From a virus, in IMG/VR virus record IMGVR_UViG_3300046003_004184, positions 1 to 41,876 of that record: 41,876 nt of DNA; one strand, 5' to 3'. The notes beneath the pieces are model-generated. The model saw only the letters and a list, made by a program, of their open reading frames with translations, did no database searches and was not told the origin of the DNA. The stretch's first letter is position 1. The number at the start of each line of letters is the position of its first letter. Of the stretch, positions 2,449 through 41,876 are shown piece by piece. A program made the translations under genes and the position numbers.

Positions 2449-3630
2449 TTAATAAGCGATTGAAATATTGGCTATTTCTTTTTTAGCAATCGCTGTGACA
2501 ATAGCAATGGCTTGTTCTTTTGTTATTCCATGCACCAATAAATCAGACACCGCTTGATTATTAATCGCCTTGCGATGCTCTAAATCAGCTTCACGCTTTA
2601 ATCTTTCAGCTTCAACACGTTCAGCCTCTTGTTTTTCTTTCAAAGCCTTTTCATCTGCTTCACGTTTTGCACGTTCCGCTTCTACTTTCTGGTCTGCAAG
2701 TTGCTTTTCAAGTGCTTCTTTTTCCTCTTGTGCCTTTTTACGTTCAGCGTCCAGTCTATCCTGCTCTGCTTTTAACTTTGCACGATTTTCAGCCTCAATC
2801 TTTTCTTGCTCTTCACGTTGCTTGCGAATTTCAGCATCATGCTTTTCCTGCTGTGCTTTTAAAATCGCTTGACGCTCTGCCTCCGCCTTGACTTCGGCTT
2901 CTCTGCGTGCTTTTTCCTCTGCTTCACGGCGTATTTGCTCTTCACGCTCTTTTTGTCTTGCTTCCTCTGCTTTGCGGTTTAACTCTGCAAGTTCGGCTTG
3001 TTGACGTGCGATTTCTTGCAATCGTGCAAGTTGTTCGTTGACATAAGCAATAGAAACATCATAAGCACGCTCTGCACGGTCTTTGAACTCTTGCCAGTCA
3101 CGTTCAAGAAGTGGTTTAAGGCTTGTTAAAAAACTCTCTGCTGTTTCAATGTTTACAATGTTTTGCTTTGCATAAAACTCAATTTCTGAAATCTTTTCTT
3201 CATGCTCTTGAATCCGTGCTTTTTCCGCATTGTTAAAATCAGTCAATGGTTTCAAAGCCAATTCCTCAAGTGCTTCAAGTTGTGCTTTAATGTCACGAGC
3301 TTGTGCATTGACTTCATTGGTTTTTACACGCCACTGTTCGGTTACTGTTTTTTTAACATCTTCAATGCGATTTCTGATTTTGGCAATTTTACGACCATTA
3401 GCCTTAATTTCTTCTCTGCCTTTTTCTGTTGAAATATCAGGAATAAAAGAAGCAACTTCGTCTCTTACTAAAGTAAGAAAAAGAGTTTTTGCCGTATCGG
3501 TAAAAATATCCTCTTTTCTTAAAGTGCGAAGCGGTGCAATAAGTGTTTTTTTGCTGTCTGGTGCGATATTATCAATCGCTTCATAGACTTCTAAGATTTC
3601 TTGGGTATCGTTATCAATTACTTGTGTCAT
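2449..3630 (-). CDS. Coiled-coil protein, DUF1351-like, first gene of recombination operon
   Basis: 393 aa with the start at the ATG preceded by AAGGATAACAAG; an in-frame ATG 45 bases upstream lacks a ribosome site. Residues about 70-160 form a helical region with many Lys/Glu, and about 195-355 form a very long continuous coiled coil of alternating REAEE/KAEAER runs. The C-terminal 45 residues (ending KKEIANISIAY) form a compact domain. The N-terminal architecture resembles phage DUF1351-type proteins often found beside recombinases. It is the promoter-proximal gene of the operon. Not an enzyme by any visible motif; probably a scaffold or DNA-associated protein. Confidence 0.65.
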   Translation of the reverse strand: MTQVIDNDTQEILEVYEAIDNIAPDSKKTLIAPLRTLRKEDIFTDTAKTLFLTLVRDEVASFIPDISTEKGREEIKANGRKIAKIRNRIEDVKKTVTEQWRVKTNEVNAQARDIKAQLEALEELALKPLTDFNNAEKARIQEHEEKISEIEFYAKQNIVNIETAESFLTSLKPLLERDWQEFKDRAERAYDVSIAYVNEQLARLQEIARQQAELAELNRKAEEARQKEREEQIRREAEEKARREAEVKAEAERQAILKAQQEKHDAEIRKQREEQEKIEAENRAKLKAEQDRLDAERKKAQEEKEALEKQLADQKVEAERAKREADEKALKEKQEAERVEAERLKREADLEHRKAINNQAVSDLLVHGITKEQAIAIVTAIAKKEIANISIAY

Positions 3631-3764: not shown

Positions 3765-3956
3765 ATGAATGAAATTGAAAGACTCAAAGAAGACCTTAAG
3801 CCGTTCAAAGCAACCTATATTGCAGAGCTGGCAGGAATTGGAAGGGCAACGATTGCTAATTTCAAGAGTGGCACACACACGTTTAACACAGAAAATTATC
3901 TGAAAGTTCGTGCTGTACTCGATAAAATCGCAAAAGACATATTGGGGGAAGCATGA
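3765..3956 (+). CDS. Small helix-turn-helix regulator, 63 aa
   Basis: Residues 14-35 (FKATYIAELAGIGRATIANFKSG) fit a helix-turn-helix: a first helix, the turn at AGIG and a recognition helix RATIANFK. Similar tiny Cro/KorC-like proteins are common phage regulators. It is transcribed divergently from the recombination operon, with an inverted repeat between the two promoters, so autoregulation and control of that operon are likely. AGGA lies 11-14 bases upstream of the start. Specific target is inferred. Confidence 0.65.
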   Translation: MNEIERLKEDLKPFKATYIAELAGIGRATIANFKSGTHTFNTENYLKVRAVLDKIAKDILGEA

Positions 3957-3991
3957 TTGACTGGTCACACCAACCGAAATTGATTGACTAA
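3953..3991 (+). CDS. Possible 12-residue peptide overlapping HTH gene
   Basis: ATGA overlap with the HTH gene, preceded by GGGGGAAGC. It encodes MIDWSHQPKLID then stops, just before the terminator. The coupling signal is good but a 12-codon frame can arise by chance; treat as tentative. Confidence 0.2.
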   Translation: MIDWSHQPKLID

Positions 3992-4002
3992 AGCATAAAA
4001 CT

Positions 4003-4026
4003 AAGCCCCTTTCGGGGCTTTTTTTG
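4003..4026. terminator. Bidirectional rho-independent terminator
   Basis: AAGCCCC-TTTC-GGGGCTT followed by a T-run on the plus strand and an A-flanked arm on the other side. It lies between the convergent HTH gene and dnaB and can end both. Confidence 0.85.
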
Positions 4027-4030
4027 TTAA

Positions 4031-5530
4031 TTAAAAATTTTCTGGTGTTAATTGTTTGTGGTTCTTTTTGTTTTTTATGTTCTCTATGCCTGCTTTTGTC
4101 ATGCCTGCGTACTCATCATTCTGATTATAATCACTATCACCAAAATAATTATAACCCATTAATGCCATAACCTTAGCAACGCCTTTTTCTGCGTTTCTGT
4201 TCTTCGCAACAATAATCTCGCAATAATAATCTTCCCAATTCTTGACCACCAAATCCGCTTCATAATGCGATGGTCTAAAAGGGAATAAAACCATATCAGC
4301 GTCCTCTTCGATACTTCCAGACTGCCTTAAATGATGTATTTCAGGGCGTTTATTATCTGATTTTTGCGATTCCCTATTGACTTGTGACAATGCAATCACT
4401 GTTACGTTTAAATCATTCGCAAGCATCTTTAATTTTCTCGTGACATTCCCAATTTCTAAATGTGCATCTTTTTTATCAGGGCGTGGAATAAGCTGTAAGT
4501 AATCAACAAAAACAAAATCAAGTGTCTTGCCGTGACGCATTAAATCCTGTGCTTGCCTTTTACAAAAAGATATTATTTGCTCTACAGTAAACGAATTATA
4601 AACCGCTGTAATATTATTCTTGCTTCGCTTTGCCGTATCAAAAACATCTTTTAACTGCTCATGCGTGCAATCTTTTTTAAATAATATTTTTTTATACGCT
4701 AACGCTCCATAAGCATCATCTATATACTTGTCACGGCTTGCAAAACGTGCTTCGCATTGACGATATGACATTTCATAATTAAACGAAATGATATTTTTAT
4801 CCTGTGCTGAAAAACGTGACTGTAGGTCAATAGATAGTGCTGTTTTGCCCATACCACTTGCCCCTGCATCAATTATAAATTCACCACGTCCAAACCCACC
4901 GATTATATTATCAAGTGCTGTTATACCAGTCATTGTCCGTGCTGATTCCACTGAAAAAGTATCTCGTTCTAGCTGTTCGGTCTGCTCCCTGCGTGTATAG
5001 ACTGTTTTTCTCGCAAACGGATTATAAAGGTTTTTTTCAATCTCAATGTTAGCATTTTGAGTAATCTTGATAATTTCAGAAAACGGAACATACTCTTGAT
5101 TCAGCTTGTCCGAAATCTCTTTATATATTTTTTTTATTTCCTCACGCTTCAGGTTTTCGTCTAAAGAAAATGCAAACCCCTTGATAATCTCATCGACTAA
5201 GCCAACTGATTGCTTCATGATGTTTCGGATATAATTTTTTACTTCAGGGTCATTGCCACACACTACATTTTCTAAATCCTGCAATCTTAACTTGCCGTTT
5301 TCATTTACTTCTCGCAAACAAAAAAGATAAACCTGTCCGTAAAAATCATTCTTGAAATGTTTATCAGACAAGAAATCAATGTCTAATGCTTTGCCTGCTA
5401 AAGAATCCCTTAACACCTTACTAAGAACAACCGCTTCCTCAAAGTTCTGCCTTACAACATATTCGCTTGTTTCTGGTGGTTGCTGTGCCTGCGTGGTTAC
5501 TTTCATCACGCTAAAAAAATCTGTATCCAT
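4031..5530 (-). CDS. dnaB: Replicative DNA helicase, DnaB family
   Basis: 499 aa. The N-terminal helical domain (residues about 30-170) starts QNFEEAVVLSKVL, typical of DnaB. The RecA-like motor has Walker A GASGMGKT near 222-229, Walker B FVFVDYLQL near 338-346, a SQVNRESQ switch segment and a C-terminal IVAKNRN arginine-finger region. AAGGAG before the ATG fixes the start. It unwinds DNA at the fork and primes host-type replication. It is transcribed alone, convergent to the 63-aa HTH gene and divergent from the initiator operon, which would load it. Family assignment is firm. Confidence 0.93.
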   Translation of the reverse strand: MDTDFFSVMKVTTQAQQPPETSEYVVRQNFEEAVVLSKVLRDSLAGKALDIDFLSDKHFKNDFYGQVYLFCLREVNENGKLRLQDLENVVCGNDPEVKNYIRNIMKQSVGLVDEIIKGFAFSLDENLKREEIKKIYKEISDKLNQEYVPFSEIIKITQNANIEIEKNLYNPFARKTVYTRREQTEQLERDTFSVESARTMTGITALDNIIGGFGRGEFIIDAGASGMGKTALSIDLQSRFSAQDKNIISFNYEMSYRQCEARFASRDKYIDDAYGALAYKKILFKKDCTHEQLKDVFDTAKRSKNNITAVYNSFTVEQIISFCKRQAQDLMRHGKTLDFVFVDYLQLIPRPDKKDAHLEIGNVTRKLKMLANDLNVTVIALSQVNRESQKSDNKRPEIHHLRQSGSIEEDADMVLFPFRPSHYEADLVVKNWEDYYCEIIVAKNRNAEKGVAKVMALMGYNYFGDSDYNQNDEYAGMTKAGIENIKNKKNHKQLTPENF

Positions 5531-36613: not shown

Positions 36614-36800
36614 ACCATATCTTAACATCGTGGATTTGAAAACAATACACGAGGCAACAATCAACATATCGGCTACTGGTTGCCTAACCATTAACCAGTT
36701 GCGAAACCATATTAGAGAGCTTGAAAAATCTCTATTGGAATTGGAATATATAAATAGAACTGTAACGCAAGAAATTAAAGAGCAAAGGGGTTTAGAATGA
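36594..36800 (+). CDS. Hypothetical protein, 68 aa
   Basis: Overlaps the HTH gene by 20 bp and the DUF262 gene by ATGA. Short helical protein (CLTINQLRNHIRELEKSLLELEYINRTVTQEIKEQ) likely to form a coiled-coil dimer. Function unknown. Confidence 0.5.
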   Translation: MNIKIHEPYLNIVDLKTIHEATINISATGCLTINQLRNHIRELEKSLLELEYINRTVTQEIKEQRGLE

Positions 36801-37237
36801 TACCGCCAAAGGTTAACTTGGGACAACATTATAATTACACAGTAGGGCATTTTACAAATCCTAAGTTCAATTATTTTAATTTTAAATTGCCTGATTTTCA
36901 GCGTCCGCTTGTCTGGACGCAAGGGCAAAAGATAAGGTTAATTGAGTCGCTATTGGTTGGAATACCGATTGGCACTTACACAGTAAACGAATCAGACAAT
37001 CCTGCTTTGGATAGGTTGTTAATTGACGGACAACAGCGTGTTAATGCCATAAAGGAATACGTGAACAATGAATTTAAAGTGTATGGTTTGTTTTATTCAG
37101 AGGTTACCGATAGAAAATTCCACAACTGTCAATTCCCTTGTTATGTCACACAAAGCGACGATATAGAATATCTGAAAAACTATTACAACCTTATGAACTT
37201 CAGCGGAACAGCACATAAAGAGGAGGAGCGAGCATGA
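36797..37237 (+). CDS. DUF262-only protein, 146 aa
   Basis: Shows the DUF262 (GmrSD N-terminal, ParB-like) core: FQRPLVWTQGQKIRLIESLLVGIPIGTY (about residues 34-61) and the nucleotide-binding LLIDGQQRVNAIKEY (about 74-88). Normal GmrS/BrxU-type enzymes are far larger and add an HNH nuclease; here the protein stops after the first domain. It may hydrolyse or bind NTP, or act as a truncated mimic of a host DUF262 restriction enzyme. Sits in a small operon behind an HTH regulator. Confidence 0.75.
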   Translation: MIPPKVNLGQHYNYTVGHFTNPKFNYFNFKLPDFQRPLVWTQGQKIRLIESLLVGIPIGTYTVNESDNPALDRLLIDGQQRVNAIKEYVNNEFKVYGLFYSEVTDRKFHNCQFPCYVTQSDDIEYLKNYYNLMNFSGTAHKEEERA

Positions 37238-39688: not shown

Positions 39689-39716
39689 TTGATAATGTAT
39701 TGTTATTTTTATAACA
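39689..39716 (+). promoter_or_regulatory. Plus promoter with palindromic operator
   Basis: TTGATA (39689-39694) and TATAAC (39710-39715), spacer 15. The palindrome TGTTAT-TTTT-ATAACA (39701-39716) covers the -10 and is a likely operator for the HTH gene that follows. Confidence 0.5.
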
Positions 39717-39729
39717 TAGAGAGGTTAAA

Positions 39730-39936
39730 ATGTTATTAACAATTAAAACAATAAGCGATTTACTTAAGCGTGAACGCAATTTGTCAGCAATCGCTAAAAA
39801 GGTCGGCTTGACGCATGGCACTTTATCCAGAATTGCCAAAAAAGATGATGCAAATATTGATGTCAGCACCTTGCAGGCTTTATCAGATTATTTTGTGTCA
39901 GAATTTAATCACATGAAAAACATATCATTGAGTTAA
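39730..39936 (+). CDS. HTH regulator of right-end operon, 68 aa
   Basis: GAGAGGTTAAA before ATG. HTH at about residues 17-42 (LSAIAKKVGLTHGTLSRIAKKDD) with turn VGLT and recognition helix HGTLSRIAKK. Typical of Cro/XRE-like regulators that head small accessory operons (Aca-like arrangement). A palindromic site overlaps its promoter. Downstream genes include the dead mini-ATPase and a conserved phage protein. Confidence 0.7.
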   Translation: MLLTIKTISDLLKRERNLSAIAKKVGLTHGTLSRIAKKDDANIDVSTLQALSDYFVSEFNHMKNISLS

Positions 39937-39949
39937 GAAGGGAATGATT

Positions 39950-40396
39950 ATGAAGAAACACATTGAGAAAATAGAGAATATCCATTGCACAAATATAGAT
40001 AATCTCACGATTGATAAATTGGGTCATTTTAATCTGTTTTGCGGTAAGTATGAAAATGGACAATATGATATATTTAATTCCATTGCAGGACGTACAGATG
40101 ATGTGAAAATAATTGATGAGATTTTATTTTCAACACACTACAGTGAGCTACATAAAGAAATTAGGTTTTATTTTAATAATATCAAAAAATATAGCCAACA
40201 AATCTTTGCAACAACCCAACGCCTCGACGTTATTCAGGCGTTTGTAGAAGTTGCCAAGGAATACCCTAATATAGAGGCTTATTATTATCGGTTGGGACGC
40301 TCTGCTATACCAAAGGACAATAACCGTTCTGTCGTGTCAATGTACACTGCAGACGAATTAATAAAAGCAATCAGTAAAAATAGAGAGGTAAGATGA
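39950..40396 (+). CDS. Miniature, catalytically dead OLD/AAA15-type ATPase
   Basis: 148 aa; GAAGGGAATGATT before the ATG (an ATG two codons earlier is less likely). It aligns with both ends of OLD-type ABC ATPases: N-terminal IENIHCTNIDNLTIDKLGHFNLF leads to GKYENGQY (32-39), where the P-loop would be G-K-N-N-x-G-K-S, so the Walker lysine is Gln38 and the Ser is Tyr39. Walker B survives as IIDEI (54-58) followed by the D-loop-like THYSE. The switch motif TTHS reads TTQR (88-91), so the His is Gln90. The C-terminal AYYYRLGR ... ADELIKAISKNREVR matches the family's closing strands. Only about 14 residues separate P-loop and Walker B, so the whole ABC-signature/coiled-coil insert is missing. A dominant-negative or decoy of a host OLD-family defence ATPase is the natural guess. 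Confidence 0.6.
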   Translation: MKKHIEKIENIHCTNIDNLTIDKLGHFNLFCGKYENGQYDIFNSIAGRTDDVKIIDEILFSTHYSELHKEIRFYFNNIKKYSQQIFATTQRLDVIQAFVEVAKEYPNIEAYYYRLGRSAIPKDNNRSVVSMYTADELIKAISKNREVR

Positions 40397-40644
40397 TGCA
40401 AAACATATCAGCAATTAGCGATTGCGCAGACTGGACTTATGAATTTTCACAAGAAAAGCATAATCAAGACGGACAAGGTCATTCTTTTTTTAAAGATAAG
40501 GTTGCAAAAATAAATTGCGGTTCGGTCGAAAGTGGACAATATTTAATCGATTCGCTTTTTAGAGAAAATAACCGTGATAGTTTGGTAAAAATTTGTCACG
40601 GTTGCTTTACTATAGAATTATATAAAACAATAGAGGTAAGATAA
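40393..40644 (+). CDS. Hypothetical protein, 83 aa
   Basis: ATGA overlap with the mini-ATPase; the ribosome site GAGGT lies in the last codons of that gene. Soluble alpha/beta with four Cys (SDCADWTYEF, KICHGCFTIELYK). No recognised family. Its own end again carries GAGGTAAG, the ribosome site of the next gene, so both genes end with the residues EVR for reasons of packing. Confidence 0.5.
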   Translation: MMQNISAISDCADWTYEFSQEKHNQDGQGHSFFKDKVAKINCGSVESGQYLIDSLFRENNRDSLVKICHGCFTIELYKTIEVR

Positions 40645-40865
40645 TGACTAACACAAAAACCACAGTTGCAGAACTGATTGAAAAACTGAAAGAGTTTGAC
40701 GGCGACATGAGGGTTGTTGTTAGTGGCTATGAAAGCGGTTACGAAGATTGCACATCTGTAAGTAAGGTAAAAATTTCTTTAAACGCCACTACCTCTTGGT
40801 ATGAGGGGACACATCAACAGTCAGAAAATGGTGTTGACGCTGTTTTTATTGATTATGGCAAATAA
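40644..40865 (+). CDS. Conserved phage protein, 73 aa
   Basis: Matches a frequent phage hypothetical family: TVAELIEKLKEFDGDMRVVVSGYESGYEDCTSV ... WYEGTHQQSENGVDAVFIDYGK shown in parts. The opening helix 'TV.eLi..L..f..d..V...Gy..Gy.d' is diagnostic. No function known. Read from the RBS at the end of the preceding gene. Confidence 0.65.
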   Translation: MTNTKTTVAELIEKLKEFDGDMRVVVSGYESGYEDCTSVSKVKISLNATTSWYEGTHQQSENGVDAVFIDYGK

Positions 40866-41740: not shown

Positions 41741-41845
41741 TCACCACCACATATCACTTTGATTTACATCTTTCATTCCTCGTGTAGCGTAGTTTATCCA
41801 CGCCACACACGCTATTAATATTAGCGTTATTATTGTTGGTATCAT
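41741..41845 (-). CDS. One-helix membrane peptide, 34 aa, complete copy
   Basis: AAAGGAG before ATG at 41845. Residues 2-20 (IPTIITLILIACVAWINYA) are a hydrophobic helix; the tail TRGMKDVNQSDMWW is polar. Lies almost wholly in the terminal repeat, which in a circular map places it between the 56-aa gene (118-288) and the 51-aa gene. Function unknown. Confidence 0.55.
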   Translation of the reverse strand: MIPTIITLILIACVAWINYATRGMKDVNQSDMWW

Positions 41846-41876
41846 ATTATTGCTCCTTTATTTTCTATACTTTATA
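41751..41876. repeat. Right copy of 126-bp terminal direct repeat
   Basis: Identical to 4-129. Here the sequence to the left (41700-41750) gives sensible gene ends, so this copy is the one joined to authentic neighbouring sequence on its inner side. Confidence 0.9.

Follow-up and report, generated by a model that had tools for sequence, protein, structure and literature searches.

A phage-encoded miniature of AbiL/PDC-M38-type ATPases as a candidate counter-defense decoy

Related defense ATPases

AbiL of lactococci is an abortive infection system. PDC-M38, listed in PADLOC as a candidate defense system, combines the AAA_15 ATPase PDC-M38A with the DUF3226 protein PDC-M38B. AbiL has been placed among the ATPase-Toprim systems (a passage in PMC12409363). 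The same split layout of an OLD-type ATPase and a TOPRIM protein is found in PARIS, where AriA is described as forming hexamers in which up to three AriB nucleases are kept inactive until a trigger frees them (passages in PMC12409363 and PMC11455837). The ABC-head fold is further found in class 1 OLD proteins, GajA of Gabija, PtuA of Septu and of retrons, and the OLD protein of retron Eco8, whose solved chains comprise about 460 to 750 residues (OLD classes are named after PMC10568477 and PMC12796447).

The protein described here consists of 148 residues and is encoded on the plus strand at positions 39950 to 40396 of the window, that is, the whole 41,876-nucleotide virus record IMGVR_UViG_3300046003_004184. 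Its ORF, profile matches, alignment, and predicted fold characterize it as a miniature, apparently ATPase-dead homolog of PDC-M38A and AbiLi (lactococcal AbiL). It has the N- and C-terminal halves in common with both families but lacks the working P-loop, the signature region, and the adjacent DUF3226 gene of its relatives. An hmmscan against PADLOC matches it to PDC-M38A (E of 2.6e-19, in two stretches) and AbiLi (5.6e-9), and tblastn finds an “ATP-binding protein” of a Citrobacter plasmid (3e-8), whose gene lies beside one for DUF3226. The E values for PDC-M38A and the plasmid protein indicate homology beyond chance, in agreement with the OLD-type ATPase kinship proposed in an earlier note on this DNA.

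That note had sought the relatives in Old, GajA, PtuA, and AriA. None of these is among the seven PADLOC families matched at an E value of ≤1, in a scan where HMMER filters drop many weak matches; the ZorB model gives a weak match (0.011). By these profiles, the closest kin of the miniature is the ATPase of a split pair of ATPase and DUF3226 (TOPRIM) protein. Despite the common fold, the 148-residue protein thus has no PADLOC match at that cutoff to the far longer OLD class 1, GajA, PtuA, and Eco8 proteins; it likewise has none to AriA, and no AriB-like partner is seen, although the parent family shares the split layout of PARIS. Neither Pfam AAA_15 nor AAA_21 matches the miniature, and PF13304 is absent from the whole record; the kinship becomes visible with the narrower PDC-M38A and AbiLi profiles. 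Scans of the miniature against Pfam, PHROGs, and NCBIfam yield nothing useful, and phmmer against the PDB yields 0 matches.

Full-length relatives are common. A single scan of genome contigs found at least 116, and 80 loci were kept; most frames comprise 300 to 410 residues and have an intact P-loop. Two full-length plasmid genes whose neighbors were scanned both adjoin genes for DUF3226 proteins.

Layout, predicted fold, and genomic setting of the miniature

The miniature was compared with 73 full-length relatives (83 loci minus six near-duplicates, removed by eye, and four broken or cut ones), in which the P-loop reads GKNNSGKS/T. Its remnant in the miniature is GKYENGQY (residues 32 to 39, positions 40043 to 40066, plus strand): an Asn and a Lys, each present in all 73 relatives, are replaced by Tyr34 and Gln38, and Tyr39 occupies the Ser/Thr position. 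Both the Walker A Lys and the Ser/Thr, absent here, are intact in 92 of 92 proteins of a second full-length set. The Walker B motif KIIDE (residues 53 to 57, positions 40106 to 40120, plus strand) retains its Asp56 (73/73) and Glu57 (72/73); it is followed by a D-loop in which Gly (72/73) has become Ser61, and by a retained His63 (71/73). In the switch strand, QIFATTQR (residues 84 to 91, positions 40199 to 40222, plus strand) corresponds to Q[IV]FATTHS of the family. The switch His, found in 72 of 73 relatives and in 91 of the 92 proteins of the second set, is replaced by Gln90, and Ser (70/73) is replaced by Arg91. Gln84, Thr88, Thr89, and Arg148 are retained (73/73 each).

The ABC signature region, whose motif Gly is present in all 73 relatives, is deleted, leaving 14 residues between Gln38 and Walker B. 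The earlier note had read these substitutions, the retained Walker B, and the approximate length of the remaining segment correctly. Its summary that both catalytic signatures are inactivated applies to the P-loop and the switch and is incomplete otherwise, taking in neither the intact Walker B nor the deletion of the ABC signature. The MAFFT placement of residues 39 to 46 varies between a helix before Walker B and a helix after the P-loop, the latter being in agreement with the other miniatures and with a predicted helix at residues 38 to 45. As judged by alignment, the miniature represents lobe I without the signature region, the switch His, or a functional P-loop, whereas the N- and C-terminal parts, Walker B, and the switch strand are kept. 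In a shared-column alignment, 23 columns reach a conservation of ≥90% among the 92 full-length proteins; the window miniature keeps 14 of them, and the other miniatures described below keep 19 to 23.

AlphaFold2 with a 74-row alignment predicts a confident ABC-head core (pLDDT 89.7, pTM 0.86); this model takes guidance from the relatives and could be biased in favor of their fold. A single-sequence model (pLDDT 51.5) was discarded. Among its best 50 rows, VIA-align 2 finds ABC-type heads with Z scores of 8.7 to 10.3, including UvrA and ABC transporters (Z up to 10.3), the retron Eco8 OLD protein (Z 9.8 over 133 residues, rmsd 3.2), and Ec83 PtuA (Z 8.8), so the model does contain the ABC-head core that the earlier note expected. 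A Foldseek search of the PDB with the same model gives no match at an E value of ≤0.001.

The record looks like a complete circularized phage assembly of about 41.75 kb. Identical stretches of 126 bases are found at its two ends (positions 4 to 129 and 41751 to 41876), and the end-to-start junction is spanned by a second contig (L001/L013). In the parts that were compared, this contig and another one, L012, match the window with 100% identity, and the miniature ORF in L001 is likewise 100% identical. The protein is encoded both in the window and in IMGVR 3300046028_007772, two records that may have reads in common. No divergent homolog of it was found, and it is known from one phage, in identical copies. 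At positions 36797 to 37237, the window also encodes a 146-residue protein consisting of the GmrSD_N/DUF262 N-terminal domain alone (Pfam, 1e-17); it matches 222 phage records, 35 of them over at least 80% of the query, and is probably ordinary.

The miniature gene is second in an operon-like run on the plus strand. The run is headed by a gene for a 68-residue Cro/CI-type HTH protein (positions 39730 to 39936; Pfam HTH_3, E of 6.1e-6; phrog_9425, transcriptional repressor, 1.4e-7), as the earlier note had recognized. An operator-like inverted repeat, found by a repeat search at positions 39708 to 39739 (10-nucleotide arms at 39708 to 39717 and 39730 to 39739, 90% complementary), spans a promoter-like −10 element and the HTH start codon. 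The promoter-like site itself (39689 to 39717) is weak evidence, as the region has 10 such sites with 6.4 expected. The miniature ORF is intact and begins 13 bases after the HTH stop codon, with a Shine-Dalgarno-like AAGGGA (as judged from the sequence) six bases 5′ of the ATG at 39950; position 39944 offers a second in-frame ATG. Its stop codon is overlapped by an ORF of 83 residues (40393 to 40644, plus strand), which occupies the place of DUF3226 in the full-length relatives and has no Pfam family above the cutoff. This ORF was considered as a shrunken DUF3226 and rejected, since hhalign against DUF3226 gives a probability of 0.3%. It is followed by an ORF of 73 residues (40644 to 40865, plus strand; phrog_7217, unknown function, 5.8e-5).

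These junctions share a sequence element with the parent family. The C terminus of 56 of the 73 full-length relatives is Glu-[Val/Ile/Leu]-Arg, and Glu-Val-Arg is often written GAG-GTN-...-TAATG, which is likely to be an embedded ribosome-binding site with a stop/start overlap for the DUF3226 gene. In 45 of these 56 loci, the codon for this Glu is GAG, which elsewhere accounts for 615 of 2,050 Glu codons. In the window, the stretch GAGGTAAGATGATG (positions 40385 to 40398, plus strand) encodes the terminal Glu-Val-Arg and stop of the miniature and resembles a Shine-Dalgarno sequence with the stop/start overlap of the 83-residue ORF. A second copy, GAGGTAAGATAATG (40633 to 40646), ends the 83-residue ORF and joins it to the 73-residue one.

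Miniature ATPases in other phages

Profile-based scans of viral contigs found seven further miniatures of 140 to 186 residues, with the lobe-I-only layout, in three other phage lineages. This class is defined here by a distance of 16 to 61 residues between the positions of the P-loop Lys and the Walker B Asp and by the absence of the signature region and of DUF3226; the window miniature, with 18 residues between these positions, belongs to it. In total, miniatures are found in 8 of 25 distinct viral contigs with a family member, the second record of the window phage being one of the 8. Among the remaining 17, one protein has 238 residues and one is cut by the contig end. The 238-residue protein (L146, IMGVR_UViG_3300049629_000880) is an intermediate form, with intact P-loop and Walker B and a degenerate signature motif as read from the sequence, and a DUF3226-like gene is still found within 3 kb of it.

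The contexts of these genes differ. Three contigs from one metagenome (L118, L123, and L125) encode miniatures of 143 residues, and the L118 gene is flanked by genes for a peptidase M15 and a PAAR protein, in the vicinity of baseplate J. One phage contig encodes tandem miniatures, L124a and L124b (L124, positions 2998 to 3558 and 3785 to 4342; 186 and 185 residues), which are 55% identical to each other. Copies of one short ORF precede each of the two, and a relative of that ORF is found upstream of the L135 miniature. The latter (163 residues) is encoded 0.75 kb after an SSB gene, and the 140-residue miniature of L136/L137 is encoded 0.8 kb before the gene for tail-completion protein gp17. 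With several lineages carrying miniatures, the one in the window is not an isolated oddity. In all five other miniatures that were scanned, the top score belongs to PDC-M38A or AbiLi, with weaker matches to the AriA, GajA, and PtuA models. All searches were seeded with the M38A/AbiL branch, and we therefore make no claim that the miniatures derive from that branch alone.

Among the loci opened in other sequence collections, no miniature was found. Of the 80 genome loci kept, none encodes an intact one; four frames of <250 residues owe their length to a contig end, a stop codon, or a frameshift. Genome searches gave matches in 4 of 369 and 4 of 300 genomes, the center genome included in each count, and none of these is a miniature. 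Two candidates were rejected: a 235-residue frame in G508 is a broken fragment followed by a DUF3226-like ORF, and Pseudanabaena G676:C19 is an N-terminal piece of 173 residues. Five of six matched loci (L002 to L006) were taken as unrelated; the ORFs of L002 and L005 correspond to a 204-residue protein that has a short stretch in common with the query, and L003, L004, and L006 were set aside because they show the same identity and span as L002 or L005. Phage records searched with the window miniature contain no credible match (E of ≥2), and with two other miniatures none has 80% of the query in one place; the family consensus matches 7 phage records, of which the three opened carry ATPases of 369, 517, and 579 residues. 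A further scan with the L135/L124 group yielded no new phage. The window miniature matches 152 plasmid records, and in none of them does a single place account for 80% of the query; 138 of the 152 are from Klebsiella, and in several of these an incomplete gene table lists nothing at the site. The L118 miniature matches 149 plasmid records, 7 of which show a match of at least 80% in two pieces over 1.1 to 1.2 kb, the size of a full-length gene. Four plasmid regions were opened.

The DUF3226 gene accompanies most of the full-length ATPases and was not found at the miniature loci. For this comparison, a DUF3226 profile was built from four seeds, of which one belongs to the tested set, and extended with the matches of the profile itself. 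It detects a DUF3226-like gene at a distance of up to 3 kb in 84 of the 89 full-length loci whose downstream sequence extends to 600 bases or more (in 82 cases adjacent and in the orientation of the ATPase gene); another locus fell short of that length. The same profile finds none within 3 kb of nine miniature loci (seven distinct contigs or strains, two of them in duplicate, with shorter flanks at contig ends). Pfam DUF3226 is likewise detected in none of the eight miniature-bearing virus records, some of which are fragments, and PF11536 has no match in the whole window. In the same search, Pfam DUF3226 matches the two virus records included for their full-length ATPase, so some viruses carry the full pair.

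Five core residues (Walker A Lys and Ser/Thr, Walker B Asp and Glu, and the switch His) were scored in eight miniatures and the 92 full-length proteins. At least one is changed in five of the miniatures, compared with two of the full-length proteins (a contrast for which the Fisher P value takes no account of kinship among the proteins), and each of the four miniature lineages has at least one changed member. Besides the window protein, these are L123 and L125 (Glu to Gly, which may be a single event), L124b (Asp to Glu), and L137 (Glu to Asn), whereas L118, L124a, and L135 keep all five. Seven of the eight keep the Walker A Lys, seven the Walker B Asp, and five the Walker B Glu; the P-loop Lys is lost only in the window miniature, which is therefore atypical of the class. 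Pairwise dN/dS values for L118, L123, and L125 are 0.081, 0.110, and 0.129, indicating that purifying selection maintains the miniature layout in this lineage; two neighboring phage genes compared between L118 and L125 have values of 0.042 and 0.086.

The L118-type miniatures are 70 to 73% identical, over shared columns, to their nearest full-length cyanobacterial ATPases and at most 35% identical to the miniatures of other lineages. Because of this identity, and because both of their halves match the same full-length genes, they are plausibly internal-deletion copies of a host-type defense ATPase. Relatives at an E value of ≤1e-12 are found in 64 of 388 genomes of the class that holds the L118-like cyanobacterial ATPases, and in the full-length locus L172, where the downstream gene was scanned with Pfam, DUF3226 adjoins the ATPase. 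The L124/L135 group is placed elsewhere in the tree, and the window and L137 miniatures have long branches that cannot be placed, the end branch of the window miniature (4.33) being the longest of all. Tree and identities favor independent origins of the miniature lineages. An AU test does not, however, reject one shared origin of the L118 and L124/L135 groups (P of 0.377, with five long rows omitted, among them those of the window and L137 miniatures). Clades of the window miniature with each of the three other groups are not rejected either, and convergence is for that reason not claimed as shown.

Possible functions

By sequence and analogy, we give an even chance to the window gene being a lobe-I-only miniature of an AbiL/PDC-M38-type ATPase that is kept as a counter-defense decoy subunit. 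The match to PDC-M38A and AbiLi, rather than to Old, GajA, PtuA, or AriA, points to a pair of ATPase and DUF3226 protein as the likely target. Internal trimming would drop the sensing and signature lobe together with the nuclease partner. In analogy to AriA, which holds a TOPRIM nuclease, the remaining half might poison the ATPase assembly of the host, inserting itself as a non-sensing, non-hydrolyzing, dominant-negative subunit, or might hold the TOPRIM nuclease as an antitoxin mimic. As ATP hydrolysis would be dispensable in either case, catalytic residues would erode. The ruined P-loop makes an ATP-sandwich dimer unlikely for the window miniature and capture of the nuclease, or of a side face, likelier; for miniatures that keep the P-loop and lack the catalytic Glu (Gly in L123 and L125, Asn in L137), a trapped ATP-bound heterodimer would be likelier.

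Capture of the TOPRIM protein predicts conserved C-terminal contacts. The conserved Glu-Val-Arg appears, however, to be at least partly a translation-coupling signal, which counts against that reading. In the cyanophage miniatures L118 and L125, the ATG is gone (TAAAG) and Glu-Val-Arg is retained. As the C-terminal end is conserved partly for translation, it is not taken alone as proof of a protein contact.

Phage-borne antitoxin mimics that stand in for a host antitoxin are exemplified by Dmd of T4 and by pseudo-ToxI. The role proposed for the miniature is similar, and the difference is in origin, as neither of these is known to derive from an OLD ATPase. Binding of a defense ATPase by a phage protein has a precedent in OrbA of vibriophage ICP1, an inhibitor of the BREX ATPase BrxC that disturbs subunit contacts; the abstract of PMC11580459 does not describe OrbA as a stripped copy of its target. 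Extended to all lineages, the proposal is that phages have repeatedly carved lobe-I-only miniatures from AbiL/PDC-M38-type ATPases, as decoys or antitoxin mimics that keep the DUF3226 nuclease inactive, with catalytic residues eroding and furthest eroded in the window phage. We put this broader scheme forward tentatively. The earlier observation is confirmed and widened from one protein to a small class, for which a counter-defense function would be likely, as judged from sequence and analogy.

The main rival to the decoy reading is decay, because the window miniature is known from a single phage and has a very long branch. The phage would once have carried the full ATPase and DUF3226 pair as its own defense cargo, as some virus records do, and a large deletion would have left the ORF open by luck. 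The longest end branch in the tree and the loss of 9 of 23 conserved columns fit such a history, and broken copies do exist: in Candidatus Thiomargarita nelsonii (L084), the N- and C-terminal halves of a chromosomal gene are about 250 bases apart in different frames, and Klebsiella plasmid pKP13c (L011) has an ATPase annotated in pieces beside DUF3226. The earlier note had named an isolated decayed copy among normal homologs as the finding that would speak against it; the relatives do have a normal P-loop, and the window miniature alone has a dead one, but it has other miniatures for company. We regard decay as unlikely, since the ORF has stayed open despite heavy divergence. Only 0.4% of 4,000 neutral runs remain stop-free at an equal fraction of changed codons, in a rough simulation that starts from the present sequence and includes substitutions without indels. 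Furthermore, the gene lies between the HTH stop codon, 13 bases upstream, and the overlapping next ORF, and the same layout is under selection in L118, L123, and L125.

A phage-internal job, as a regulator, a scaffold, or a partner of the 83-residue protein or the HTH repressor with no link to host defense, would agree with the HTH-led run of overlapping small ORFs and with the location of other miniatures in phage modules (L118 with M15, PAAR, and baseplate J; L137 with gp17; L135 with SSB). These contexts are so unlike each other that they speak against one common internal role, and the scanned miniatures all score best on one defense branch, though the searches were seeded there; we find this explanation rather improbable. 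Least probable by far is a stand-alone defense or superinfection-exclusion effector that can still sense something and, unaided, harm the cell or competing phages: full-length relatives do belong to candidate defense systems, and the anti-phage phenotypes of the Escherichia coli class 1 OLD protein YbjD are reported to need its ATPase domain while Toprim is dispensable (a passage in PMC13261556), but the window miniature has lost ATPase residues and the signature region, and no effector domain is found in it by Pfam or PADLOC scans.

If the decoy reading is correct, the miniatures would be candidates for inhibitors of OLD-type defense in its AbiL/PDC-M38 branch, for which none was found in the literature searched. 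That search, by title and abstract opening, found no paper on a phage-borne miniature OLD or AbiL ATPase; most subscription journals lie outside its coverage, making this weak evidence of absence. The naturally trimmed subunits would also be tools for locating the part of the ATPase that holds the nuclease, and cutting a defense protein down to its binding half would be a general route, for which other systems could be screened. By fold similarity, short viral proteins of 146, 179, and 191 residues are found, with TM-scores of 0.50 to 0.63 by query length.
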